From contig NZ_CP054140.1 in the NCBI RefSeq assembly GCF_016446285.1, forward strand, positions 1,407,501 to 1,471,500: DNA of 64,000 nucleotides, in the 5' to 3' direction. The first letter of the stretch is position 1. Each line of letters begins with the position of its first letter. A program made the translations under genes and the position numbers. This DNA comes from Desulfobulbus oligotrophicus. GTDB taxonomy: Bacteria; Desulfobacterota; Desulfobulbia; Desulfobulbales; Desulfobulbaceae. Under the pieces are notes generated by a model, which had not been told where the DNA came from, searched no databases, and saw nothing but the letters and a program-made list of their open reading frames with translations. Below, piece by piece: positions 26,984-30,263 of this stretch.

Positions 26984-29362
26984 TCAATCATGGTAAATTG
27001 ACCAACGACCTGAGCTCGTGTCGAATTGATAGTGCAACTCCAGTTTAGAGGTACTCCCCTGACTGCGTTCCAGACAGGTAAGGTTGAAAATAAGACTGTT
27101 CCCGATTTTTTTTGAAAACGTTGCCTTCGGCTGTGAGAGCTTTGACCCTTTAAATGTGGGATAGTTAGCGCGGAAAATAGTCTCAAAATGTTCTTCCAGC
27201 CAGGCTATTTTTTCATTTTGTAAGGCAATTTGTTGAGATTTTGCGATTTTTTCGTTTATTTTTTGGCCCACAATTTTCACGGTGGGATCTGACTGGTAGT
27301 TACTCGTCCGTATCAGCCTGAGAATTTCTCTGCTGTGTGTTAAAGCCGTATGCATATCACCCTTGTTTTCAGCAACAACAACTGCTTCCTGTAACTGTGC
27401 TATTTTAACGAGAAGCAGGGTCTTCTCAATTTTTCCTAAGGACTCCTCCTCCATATTTGTTGCAGAGTCCGGCTCAGTCGCCAGAAGATTGAGAGCATTT
27501 TGATATTCCTCTATGGCGGCCGGCCAGTTTTTCTGTTGATAGGCTTCTCTTGCGGTGGACAAGGTGAGATAAAGACGGGAGTTGATGAGGAGCCTGTGTA
27601 AATCCTGCCGTTCTTTTTCAGTCACTACAGTCGGGTTAACTGTTATAACCTGTTGAGCCTGCTCGAGGTATCGAATAGTTTCTTTCCATTGAGATTGGGT
27701 AAATGCCTTTTTTGATTGATCCAGCTCATGCCGAAAGGTGGCTGCTGTCATTCTGTTGGTTATGTCGCTGGTACTGCCCAGTGTTTGAATGTTACCGGAT
27801 ATGGTCAACGCGTTTCGATACGCTGCCGCTGCTTCATCCCAGTTTTTTTCCCGTTCTGCACGCTCAGCAACTGCCAATGCATACCGCAACTCTAAAGATT
27901 GGATAGTTTCATTAAGCATCGACTGCTGTTTCACAAGATTATGCTCAGCAGCAAATTTCATGGCTTGACGGTATAGTGTCAGCGACTCCAACAGCTTGTT
28001 CTGCCCGACAAATATCTGGGCTTGATCGGTCATGATGTTGAGTTCTTCCTGTGCCGATGCCAGTCCTGCCGGGATATACTCGCCTTGATAAAAGACTCGT
28101 CCCCGCAAACCCTCTTGAAGATGCTGGGATGCAATGAGCTCTGAGATGACTTTTTCCTGAGCACTTTTCTTAAAACGAAGAATGGTCAAGTTCGACAAAA
28201 CACTTCGGGCGGTTTCCAGATTTTCTAAGGCTGCATCAAACTGTTTCTTATCTATAAGCAGTTGTCCTTTAAGCAGTTGGGCTTGAGATTCGCTCAACAG
28301 ATCCTGATCGTTAAAGTAGAGAGAGATAGCCCCTATGAGCAGCCCCAGAAATCCGATACTGATGAGAATCGGTTTTATCGGGAGAGAAGATATCTTTGCA
28401 AAAGGCTTCCCGGTCGACAGCGGGCGGCGCTGCAGAGGAGTCGAAGCTGCTGGGTCTCTCGCTGTCTGCAACCGTTCAGTTTTTTTTGCGCTGATTCCAT
28501 CGATTTCGGCCACTTGAAACGATTGCTGAATCCGTGTTCGCAAGGTGTCAACTTCAGGGGCATCAGGTGCAATGGTCAGTAAGTTGTCAATGACTTCAAG
28601 TGCCTCTTCGTATTTTCCTACATCTTCAAGCTGCTCAGCCAGTTTAAAGAGTTGATCAGTTTTTCTAAGAGTTCTGCTGATCTCCTGTTGTAACTCTTCG
28701 CGGTCAGGGAAATCGATGTTGTCAGGTATTTCGGCCAGGAGTTTGTTGGCCGTAAAAATTTTGTGACTATCAATAAGGTCCCGAATCTGTTGGAGGTCAT
28801 CCGGCGTAACAGGCTTGACCGGTTCGAGGAAATCATCACTTTCAAGGCCAAGTGCAGCAAAGGTGTCTTCAGTCAGGGAGTCGAGGGGAGCCCCTGTCTC
28901 TTCAATATCAGCAATGCTGATGGTGTCAAGGGGGAGCTGGTCACTGTGACGTGTATACCATTCTGCCGCTTCCTGGTTAAAAGGGTCGTTAAGGTTATAG
29001 ACATTGCCGCAGATCATTTCTCCTATATGGAGAATAAGATCCGGAAGTGACGGATTTTGCTGCCAGTAGTCTGCCAGGCGAATGGCTGCGGGATCAAAAT
29101 CAGGATGGAAGATCGGGGTCAGTGGCTTGGCAATGGGTGCAAAATGAGGGTAACCAAAGGGCAGGCTAAGACGTATCCTGTGTTTTTCACCAATACTGAT
29201 CGAATGCTCATTTTCTCTGATATACCCGCGCAGAGTATACTCAATCTCATAATTGTCAGGAGGCTGGCCTGTCGTTCCTACCAGGACTATATGAGGGTAC
29301 AGTTCCAGTAGTTCTCTGAGTTGCGTATATTCGTCGGCAAGTTGTTGTGAACCCATCACCAT
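26984..29362 (-). CDS. Membrane protein with N-terminal ubiquitin-E2-variant-like domain and C-terminal TPR-like repeats
   Basis: The 792-residue product has four parts. Residues about 5-140 resemble the ubiquitin-conjugating (UBC/RWD/UEV) fold in order: YEIEYTLRG, LSLPFGYPHFAP, IFHPDFDPAAIRLADYW, LPDLILHIGEMI, and NDPFNQEAAEWYTRH. Canonical E2s have HPN followed by ICLD with the catalytic Cys; here Arg95 occupies that place, so it is probably non-catalytic. Residues 150-325 form a linker with one TPR-like hairpin (KYEEALEVIDNLLTIAP). A single membrane helix follows (about 330-350, PILISIGFLGLLIGAISLYF). The remainder, probably periplasmic, holds several TPR-like helical repeats and a beta-rich end. 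I know no function. It is divergent from the PATAN-domain gene at 29631. Confidence 0.6.
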   Translation of the reverse strand: MVMGSQQLADEYTQLRELLELYPHIVLVGTTGQPPDNYEIEYTLRGYIRENEHSISIGEKHRIRLSLPFGYPHFAPIAKPLTPIFHPDFDPAAIRLADYWQQNPSLPDLILHIGEMICGNVYNLNDPFNQEAAEWYTRHSDQLPLDTISIADIEETGAPLDSLTEDTFAALGLESDDFLEPVKPVTPDDLQQIRDLIDSHKIFTANKLLAEIPDNIDFPDREELQQEISRTLRKTDQLFKLAEQLEDVGKYEEALEVIDNLLTIAPDAPEVDTLRTRIQQSFQVAEIDGISAKKTERLQTARDPAASTPLQRRPLSTGKPFAKISSLPIKPILISIGFLGLLIGAISLYFNDQDLLSESQAQLLKGQLLIDKKQFDAALENLETARSVLSNLTILRFKKSAQEKVISELIASQHLQEGLRGRVFYQGEYIPAGLASAQEELNIMTDQAQIFVGQNKLLESLTLYRQAMKFAAEHNLVKQQSMLNETIQSLELRYALAVAERAEREKNWDEAAAAYRNALTISGNIQTLGSTSDITNRMTAATFRHELDQSKKAFTQSQWKETIRYLEQAQQVITVNPTVVTEKERQDLHRLLINSRLYLTLSTAREAYQQKNWPAAIEEYQNALNLLATEPDSATNMEEESLGKIEKTLLLVKIAQLQEAVVVAENKGDMHTALTHSREILRLIRTSNYQSDPTVKIVGQKINEKIAKSQQIALQNEKIAWLEEHFETIFRANYPTFKGSKLSQPKATFSKKIGNSLIFNLTCLERSQGSTSKLELHYQFDTSSGRWSIYHD

Positions 29363-29582
29363 AAAAGTAACCTACCTGGTAGAAGCTGTTGTGCGGGTTT
29401 CCGATCTTAAACGAGGCAGAATGATCAGGAGCGACCTTTTTTTGTGTGGTACTGCAACAGTCATAGTTTTTTAATAATTGTAAAGTATTTCGGCGTTTGA
29501 AACAAGTCAGCGTTGCCTCCAATGCATGAAAAAGTCTTTGGATGGCGGAATGCAAAAGATTGTTTGAGTGCAGGAAAAGAGA

Positions 29583-29626
29583 TGTGTACACTAATTACAG
29601 GATTAAGAAAATTGAGACTGTACACA
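29583..29626. repeat. Inverted repeat before the PATAN gene
   Basis: TGTGTACA at 29583-29590 and its exact reverse complement TGTACACA at 29619-29626 flank a 28-base spacer, immediately before ATG 29631. It may be an operator or a 5'-UTR hairpin. The surrounding 29363-29630 gap also has to hold the divergent promoter of the UEV-like gene; no clear -10/-35 pair was identified there. Confidence 0.4.
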
Positions 29627-29630
29627 CTCC

Positions 29631-30263
29631 ATGAAAACATTCAACACCGCATTTGAAATCACCCACGTTCAGAACTGTCCATTATACATGCAGGATGACT
29701 GTTTTGTCCTGACTGACAAGGCAGTGGAATTACCATTGGGACGAGCCTCCTGCCTGATCCTGGTACGAGAACTGACAGGGGTACTCTTCACCTTGATTCC
29801 GGATGCGGACCAGTGTTTTGCTAAACATCACAGGACGATTTTTACGTGCGGCGGATGCACCGGGTTGATCAAGTTCAGACTGACCGAGAAACCTGTCATC
29901 AGAAATAACAATAAAGATGTGCCGGCTTTTTCAGAAAATCCCCAGTCAGTTATCAGCGGCCGGATTGAGGCGATCCACCCGGCTGAGCTGCTGCAGGTCT
30001 TTCATATGCATCAGAAAACCGGTCGTCTTGTCCTCGAATTTGCAAACGGCTCTGCACGGGTAACCTTCAGAGAAGGCGGCTTATTGGCGGCACGTTTTGA
30101 AGATTTTGATAATCAGGAGGCGATTTATGCAATGCTGGCTGAAAAGAAGGGAACGTTTCATTTTATTCCCGGTCTGCCGGATGCACTGATGCAGACACGG
30201 GAAATCGGTGATTTTATGATGATCCTCATGGAAGGTTTACGGCGTCTTGATGAGGAAGCGTAA
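29631..30263 (+). CDS. Two-domain protein with C-terminal DUF4388 (PATAN) domain
   Basis: This 210-residue soluble protein has two parts. The N-terminal part (about 1-95) is cysteine-containing (VQNCPLYMQDDCFVL, RASCLILVRELTG, FTCGGCTGLIKFRLTEK) and vaguely resembles the TIGR04076 type of small metal- or redox-like domain. The C-terminal part (about 103-190) is a clear DUF4388/PATAN domain: ISGRIEAIHPAELLQVFHMH, KTGRLVLEFANGSARVTFRE, GGLLAARFEDFDNQEAIYAM and GTFHFIPG. PATAN domains occur in bacterial regulatory proteins, often with GTPase or receiver partners. There is no clear ribosome site at ATG 29631. It is divergent from the UEV-like gene, which may share regulation. Confidence 0.75.
   Translation: MKTFNTAFEITHVQNCPLYMQDDCFVLTDKAVELPLGRASCLILVRELTGVLFTLIPDADQCFAKHHRTIFTCGGCTGLIKFRLTEKPVIRNNNKDVPAFSENPQSVISGRIEAIHPAELLQVFHMHQKTGRLVLEFANGSARVTFREGGLLAARFEDFDNQEAIYAMLAEKKGTFHFIPGLPDALMQTREIGDFMMILMEGLRRLDEEA

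Follow-up and report, generated by a model that had tools for sequence, protein, structure and literature searches.

The window analysed here is a stretch of 64,000 nucleotides from Desulfobulbus oligotrophicus (contig NZ_CP054140.1, positions 1,407,501 to 1,471,500), and its subject is a gene on the minus strand encoding a transmembrane (TM) protein whose N-terminal part, residues 1-145, is confirmed to have the fold of a ubiquitin-conjugating enzyme (E2), with Arg95 on the position of the catalytic cysteine. The descent of this domain from the E2s of bacterial ubiquitin (Ub) operons, together with the loss of the catalytic Cys, is well supported. Since Cys was replaced by Arg while bacterial relatives keep both the Cys and their Ub-like operons, it appears that this enzyme fold has been put to another use. 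We propose that the E2 was repurposed as the cytosolic docking head of a TM scaffold of tetratricopeptide repeats (TPR) working with the protein of a divergently transcribed PATAN gene, a reading to which we give about even chances of being right.

An E2 fold with arginine in place of the catalytic cysteine

26984..29362, minus strand: whole gene, 792 aa, ATG start; E2-like domain, cytosolic TPR, TM helix, predicted periplasmic TPR-like superhelix, C-terminal beta domain
28928..29362, minus strand: E2 (UBC) fold without catalytic Cys, residues 1-145 (sequence matches, model, profile alignment)
29078..29107, minus strand: active-site loop, residues 86-95, with HPD for HPN; Arg95 codon at 29078-29080 (profile alignment)

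A previous reading of the sequence alone had proposed that this open reading frame carries the motif order of E2s at its N-terminus, and the order is indeed present: GYP, HPD at residues 86-88, I-R95-L, W100 and DPFNQEAAEWY. Residues 1-154 matched Pfam UQ_con (PF00179) with an E-value of 6.5e-6 and 26.2 bits, which does not reach the curated cutoff of 27, the whole protein also remaining below it (22.3 bits), and UQ_con was matched by 54/54 aligned relatives at E<=0.01. A single-sequence phmmer search of the PDB retrieved UBE2C (2.6e-6) as well as UBE2N chains. The profile of the 54 relatives matched UBE2C with an E-value of 8.5e-11, the Arg column falling on the column of the catalytic Cys, which places the HPD-IRL segment on the E2 active-site loop as had been predicted. 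A fold search had been fixed beforehand as the refuting test for this assignment, and it returned E2s: with the structure model of residues 1-155 (predicted local distance difference test, pLDDT, 90.3; predicted template modelling score, pTM, 0.85), the best VIA match was UBE2S (Z 13.6; 128 residues, 2.5 Å), and all of the 50 Foldseek matches listed were E2 structures or E2-containing complexes. Chance resemblance to E2s is rejected on the grounds of the single-sequence and profile E-values, the UQ_con matches of all aligned relatives and the structure; by fold and by sequence motifs over the domain, the protein belongs to the UBC/E2 fold superfamily. Having Arg95, it lacks the active-site Cys of a catalytic E2 and presents the Cys-less E2 fold of a ubiquitin E2 variant (UEV). 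Thus, the UEV/RWD-like assignment put forward from the sequence alone stands as to the Cys-less E2 fold; its RWD-like part found no support, the matches being to E2s; a Pfam scan of the protein at E<=1 listed no RWD family, although an unlisted family is not thereby excluded.

The E2 part is the best-conserved portion of the protein, with a mean column identity of 62-64% versus 33% for residues 160-792, and its ratio of nonsynonymous to synonymous substitution rates (0.04-0.25 in eight pairs) indicates purifying selection. Both observations argue against the E2-like domain being a neutral relic, an explanation that could invoke the loss of Cys in the window's family, one genome with a stop-broken match and one with none, and that we consider highly improbable.

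Descent from the E2s of ubiquitin-like operons

Outside the Desulfobulbales, E2s with HPN and Cys were found in Planctomycetota (locus L121), Sumerlaeota (L122) and Armatimonadota (L124). At L122, the genes for Ub-like, ubiquitin-activating enzyme (E1), JAB, FHA-TM, RING-like and E2 proteins are consecutive, with Pfam matches to YukD, ThiF, JAB, FHA, Prok-RING_1 and UQ_con (40.3 bits for UQ_con), and this six-part set recurs at L267, L268, L271 and L272. The E2 profile matched 31/246 genomes in a sample of the phylum around L121; among 25 loci fetched from that sample, 22 carry Cys and three do not (Tyr in L250; His in L251 and L252). In a tree of 126 rows, the Desulfobulbales sequences constitute a clade of 97 rows with a support of 100 in the Shimodaira-Hasegawa-like approximate likelihood ratio test, which adjoins the operon E2s of Planctomycetota and Sumerlaeota with a joint fork of 89; 55 of the 123 inner forks of this tree are open, long-branch warnings were raised on outlying rows, and the rows of the window's family were thinned.

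We also inspected the flanks of 17 relatives from outside the order (L121, L122, L124, genome G281 and 13 from the Planctomycetota sample), with queries taken from L121, L122 and genome G059; distant components could be missed in this way, and some flanks were short. At least one of the E1, Ub, JAB, FHA-TM and RING-like components was located nearby in 12 of the 14 Cys-bearing relatives, and no such component was detected in the flanks of the three Cys-less ones (G281, G568 and G738). Orphan E2-like genes therefore tend to lose the Cys.

Two further observations were made at Planctomycetota loci. The E2-like genes of L273 and L275 (genomes G568 and G738) carry Tyr and His, respectively, and operon components were not found within about 16 kb of them. 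At the E2 locus L121 (6601-7980), a Prok-RING_1-like stretch, just below the cutoff, is fused to a trypsin-like protease domain.

A cysteine, arginine and lysine series at one locus

Of the 170 E2-positive genomes of the class, 109 were read for the residue at the position of the catalytic Cys, corresponding to 52/70 in the window's family (f1), 41/83 in its sister family (f6), and 15/16 and 1/1 in two other families (f13 and f15). Arg was present in 48 of the 52 genomes read in the window's family, and Cys in none. In the sister family, Cys was found in 39/41 genomes, a count from which six short second copies were excluded; the 15 genomes read in f13 are mixed, with six Cys, seven Lys and two Arg, and the single genome of f15 has Cys. 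The HPD motif replaces HPN in 117 of 123 loci counted, across both Cys and Arg forms. In the tree, all Lys forms fall into a single clade (support 98), and the Arg forms are split between the window's own clade (96) and a Desulfobia pair apart from it (92). Three genomes of the window's genus (G018, G029 and G035) show Ala or Ser at this position. Judging from the gene order around a Cys form (G117, described below), the series lies at one orthologous locus.

The excluded second copies of the E2-like TM protein (L157-L162; genera g29 and g30, in sister-family genomes) are shorter, 533-553 aa, with Arg in three and Pro in three at the Cys position, and the PATAN neighbour is absent from all six.

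Spread and inheritance

The full-length protein was found in 70/73 genomes of the window's family, and the E2 profile matched 170 of the 257 genomes of the class, the broken copy of G025 included. The genera of the relatives include Desulfobulbus, Desulfogranum, Desulfopila and Desulfosediminicola, as well as the cable bacteria Electrothrix and Electronema. The gene neighbourhood extends to Cys forms: in G117 (L284), blastp matches to the E2-like and PATAN genes and to six more genes of the window follow the order seen in the window. In a sample of 297 genomes of the phylum, eight matched the E2 profile, only G281 and G331 lying outside the order. In G331 the E2 adjoins an E1 match. G281, from another family of the phylum, encodes a 1054-aa E2-like protein without the Cys and with sub-cutoff TPR matches (L232:5257-8418), and no operon component was detected among those searched for in its flanks; it may constitute a separate instance of the same loss of Cys.

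The gene is not kept in every genome of the window's genus: G025 harbours an E2-like remnant with two TAG stops (C102:2706-3109), and G026, which is 99% complete, gave no E2 match. A mobile gene is rejected for the Desulfobulbales form, given the lack of any match in a plasmid search, the clade-wide synteny and the restriction to G281 and G331 outside the order among the 297 genomes. Likewise, a defence system was considered and rejected, as the best PADLOC E-value was 0.044 for the domain, with no match for the whole protein, in addition to the absence of plasmid matches and the clade-wide syntenic locus.

Search for the remaining components of a ubiquitin system

The sequence-only reading had stated that no E1, Ub-like or deubiquitinase gene lies near the E2-like gene, and this was borne out: queries for the operon E1, Ub, JAB, FHA-TM and RING-like proteins found no match in the window, nor in the Desulfobulbales loci among 73 named ones. 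At the genome level, a Ub profile derived from the operons had no match in 255 of the 257 genomes of the class, that of the window among them. The two exceptions, G059 and G138, the latter being the only sister-family genome with an operon-type Ub, also hold the only close E1 matches of the class, within separate operons that bring an E2 of their own. Altogether, 182/257 genomes match the operon E1 at 1e-10, and all but these two score far lower, at a level that, in our reading, general ThiF/MoeB-type proteins would be expected to give. The genome of the window has no operon E1 match at 1e-10, one ThiF-family match above the cutoff (212 aa) and two Prok-JAB matches below it. Prok-RING_1 did not exceed the cutoff in any of the 257 genomes, sub-cutoff matches being present in 14. 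Therefore, the cognate E1 and Ub-like protein that a catalytic E2 works with were not found in the window's genome, although very distant modifiers could escape such a search.

These results bear on the explanation that the protein still works in a Ub-like pathway, acting as a UEV-type cofactor to a Ub-like protein and an E1 that have escaped recognition, for instance a distant ThiS/MoaD-type modifier and the ThiF-family protein of the genome. The E2 fold and most of its landmarks are strongly retained, eukaryotic UEVs act in this manner, and both the ThiF-family match of the window's genome and the 182 genomes matching the operon E1 could be counted in its favour. Conversely, the near absence of operon-type Ub from the class, the lack of any Prok-RING_1 match above the cutoff, the absence of operon components from the neighbourhood of the gene, both in the window and in the other Desulfobulbales loci searched, and the unmatched operon E1 in the window's genome oppose it, and we regard it as unlikely.

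G059 clusters with Electrothrix in the tree. Its separate Ub-like operon (L217:7820-15479, on contig C1) encodes a 767-aa E1, an 84-aa Ub-like protein with AGI at its C-terminus, an E2 (its Cys read by eye) and two JAB proteins, one of which has an E2-like match. The N-terminus of a third JAB protein in this operon looks E2-like by eye.

Membrane topology and TPR regions

28478..28804, minus strand: cytosolic helical/TPR stretch, residues 187-295 (Pfam TPR_2 at 238-267; helices in the model)
28313..28369, minus strand: single TM segment, residues 332-350, predicted N-in (hydrophobicity, charge)
27143..28312, minus strand: predicted periplasmic TPR-like superhelix, residues 351-740 (Pfam, model, Foldseek)
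26996..27142, minus strand: C-terminal four-strand domain, residues 741-789, with a conserved Cys (alignment, model)

The single membrane helix and the long TPR-like region described from the sequence alone were recovered here, with one TM segment at residues 332-350, a TPR_2 match at E 1e-9 and a model of residues 160-792 (pLDDT 85.9, pTM 0.54) resembling TPR superhelices; all of the 50 Foldseek matches listed for this model are TPR or other helical repeats. That description had overlooked the cytosolic TPR stretch preceding the TM segment, which a low-confidence linker in the model joins to the E2-like domain, as well as the C-terminal beta domain and the Cys-bearing orthologues. Exactly one TM segment was predicted by hydrophobicity in each of 127 full-length loci (the window included, some genomes being counted twice), and the net positive charge on the N-side of this segment, relative to the C-side, was higher in 111 of them and lower in 11.

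The divergent PATAN gene as a candidate partner

29631..30263, plus strand: divergent partner gene, 210 aa; N-terminal four-Cys module at 29631-29894, PATAN/DUF4388 at about 29955-30257
29363..29630, no strand: shared divergent intergenic region, 268 bp, between the E2-like and PATAN genes, which stand head to head

The product of the partner gene matches Pfam PF14332 (PATAN/DUF4388) above the cutoff (70.7 bits, E 1.4e-19), and the four Cys of its N-terminal module are invariant in 13 aligned members. It occurs in a short form of about 210 aa, as in the window, and in a long form with a cyclic nucleotide monophosphate (cNMP)-binding domain between the two parts (e.g., L111:6670-7755). The sequence-only reading had also asked whether homologues keep this gene. 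Once five short-flank sequences and domain fragments of less than 120 residues had been dropped, 126 distinct E2-like sequences had sufficient flank, and the PATAN gene was adjacent in 96 of them (Arg 50/65, Cys 40/45, Lys 6/7, other residues 0/9), an association between residue and partner with a Fisher value of 8.7e-7 when relatedness is ignored; it was not adjacent in the loci of cable bacteria that were read. A PATAN orthologue (E<=1e-25) was detected in 127 genomes, 126 of which are E2-positive, these partner counts having been tallied by hand with the E-value line set by eye in a two-humped list. Within the window's genus, the orthologue is absent from G025, G026, G018, G029 and G035.

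A possible but less than probable alternative is that the PATAN gene is linked only through the shared promoter region or the stability of the locus, with the E2-like domain binding something else. Other flanking genes are likewise retained across much of the group, and a Sua5/YrdC gene (identified in L100) occupies the PATAN place in the loci of cable bacteria, where the E2-like gene is retained. Nevertheless, PATAN is still adjacent where other neighbours differ (L111, L113, L114, L115, L117 and L120), and its orthologue is almost never found without an E2-like gene.

The cNMP domain of the partner lies beside 38/40 Cys forms, 2/20 Arg forms and 0/6 Lys forms. This correlation was kept out of the main evidence because it amounts to only two or three changes on the tree, where it is not significant; L113, L116, L200 and L203 (truncated partner) are exceptions. 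It is one of the observations favouring a different explanation, namely that a Cys chemistry unrelated to Ub, such as thiol or persulfide sensing or acyl transfer, was ancestral in the Desulfobulbales form, the Arg and Lys forms being fixed-state versions of a switch. The Cys is kept in most of the sister-family genomes read although only a single genome of that family has an operon-type Ub; the large groups that replaced it carry a basic residue, Arg or Lys; and the partner combines four invariant Cys with a cNMP domain beside 38/40 Cys forms versus 2/26 Arg/Lys forms. With the limits of the cNMP correlation and its exceptions set against it, we consider this explanation rather unlikely. An extended version appears improbable to a similar degree. 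In it, the protein would be an orphan membrane-anchored E2-fold receptor that has left Ub chemistry; the orthologues with Cys would use it, with no Ub-like protein involved, as a switch (redox, persulfide or acyl) that the PATAN/cNMP partner reads, and Arg would have fixed this switch in the window's family.

Proposed function

Docking, with the PATAN protein as the first candidate ligand, is the most economical function that we can assign to the E2-like domain. In this account, the N-terminal domain descends from a catalytic E2 of a bacterial operon with Ub, E1, JAB, FHA-TM, RING-like and E2 genes; in the line leading to the Desulfobulbales the gene came to stand alone, encoding a transmembrane TPR protein and passing on vertically, and the window's family exchanged the catalytic Cys for Arg. 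The E2-like domain, as a cytosolic docking head, would bind a protein ligand, which is probably encoded by the divergent PATAN gene, and this contact would be passed or anchored through the single TM helix to the periplasmic TPR scaffold. What the analysis shows is the fold, the Arg on the Cys position, the predicted topology, the descent, the lack of detectable Ub and E1 counterparts, and the linkage to the PATAN gene together with some joint losses of both; the binding itself, the PATAN protein as its ligand and the periplasmic part scaffolding an envelope process are inferred. The role suggested from the sequence alone, sensing or tethering in place of conjugation, would fit this account.

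Several observations weigh against this proposal. Two Cys-bearing Planctomycetota loci, L269 and L274, show no operon enzyme in the flank read. The link between active-site residue and partner corresponds to about five independent departures, and only four well-supported pairs are available on the tree (on average 3.7 in the same direction, none in the opposite one), for which the sign test gives 0.125, significance being unreachable on this tree. The loci of cable bacteria that were read have no adjacent PATAN gene, and 44 of the 170 E2-positive genomes have no PATAN orthologue, relatives of cable bacteria included and some of these being contig-end losses; the PATAN protein therefore cannot be the sole ligand. 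Finally, pure docking does not account for the well-kept Cys of the sister family, which has no visible Ub system; this conservation and the basic nature of the replacements in the large lineages are not explained by the docking reading.

Relation to known systems and significance

Eukaryotic UEV proteins (MMS2/UBE2V, TSG101) use a Cys-less E2 fold for binding. The protein of the window resembles them in kind and is not a member of their group, as its best matches are catalytic E2s and its nearest relatives are bacterial E2s, not UEVs. The nearest group in the tree is that of the E2s from the Ub/E1/JAB/FHA/Prok-RING_1 operons of Planctomycetota and Sumerlaeota, which share the same E2 domain; however, these have HPN and Cys within a conjugation operon, whereas the window's protein has HPD and Arg and no such partners. 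The E2 protein of L122 in Sumerlaeota also displays hydrophobic stretches near the C-terminus, but, unlike the window's protein, it has no TPR by Pfam at E<=0.01.

According to Iyer et al. (2006; PMC1779556, row 6e), polyUbl operons include an RWD-like inactive E2 without Cys, proposed to bind Ub moieties. This inactive E2 shares with the window's protein a bacterial E2 fold devoid of Cys; conversely, the polyUbl-operon E2s occur in operons with polyUbl, E1 and JAB that are described as highly mobile, whereas the window's protein is found across its clade as an orphan with TPRs and a membrane anchor. Bacterial E2 folds without catalytic activity are therefore not new in themselves, Cys-less E2/RWD-like domains having been described there in 2006. 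For the partner, PMC7690835 ties the PATAN regulators PixG, PixE and LsiR of Synechocystis to the type IV pilus machinery. They have the PATAN/DUF4388 domain in common with the partner, which differs in having no receiver domain by Pfam, a four-Cys N-terminal module and, in many relatives, a cNMP domain. In Myxococcus, two PATAN proteins appear among the candidates from a search for partners of the TPR protein SgmX (PMC11580455), where they are not followed further. The pilus and SgmX parallels serve as leads only.

As far as could be seen, what is new is that the gene is an orphan inherited vertically across the clade, that its product combines TM and TPR parts, that a single set of orthologues holds a Cys/Arg/Lys series and that a PATAN gene is linked to it; a literature search whose coverage excluded most subscription papers yielded no description of an E2-like protein in the Desulfobulbales group. 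The locus offers a natural series at one orthologous position, in which the E2-type Cys gives way to Arg or Lys, with relatives still residing in Ub-like operons, and because this series is found in bacteria, the change from a catalytic to a non-catalytic E2 becomes testable outside eukaryotes. Further, attention is drawn to a clade-wide TM protein, present in sulfate reducers as well as cable bacteria, with no described function that we could find, and a first candidate partner can now be named for it. The most interesting opening is provided by the sister family, which keeps its Cys without a visible Ub system, and by the basic residues that replaced the Cys in large lineages.

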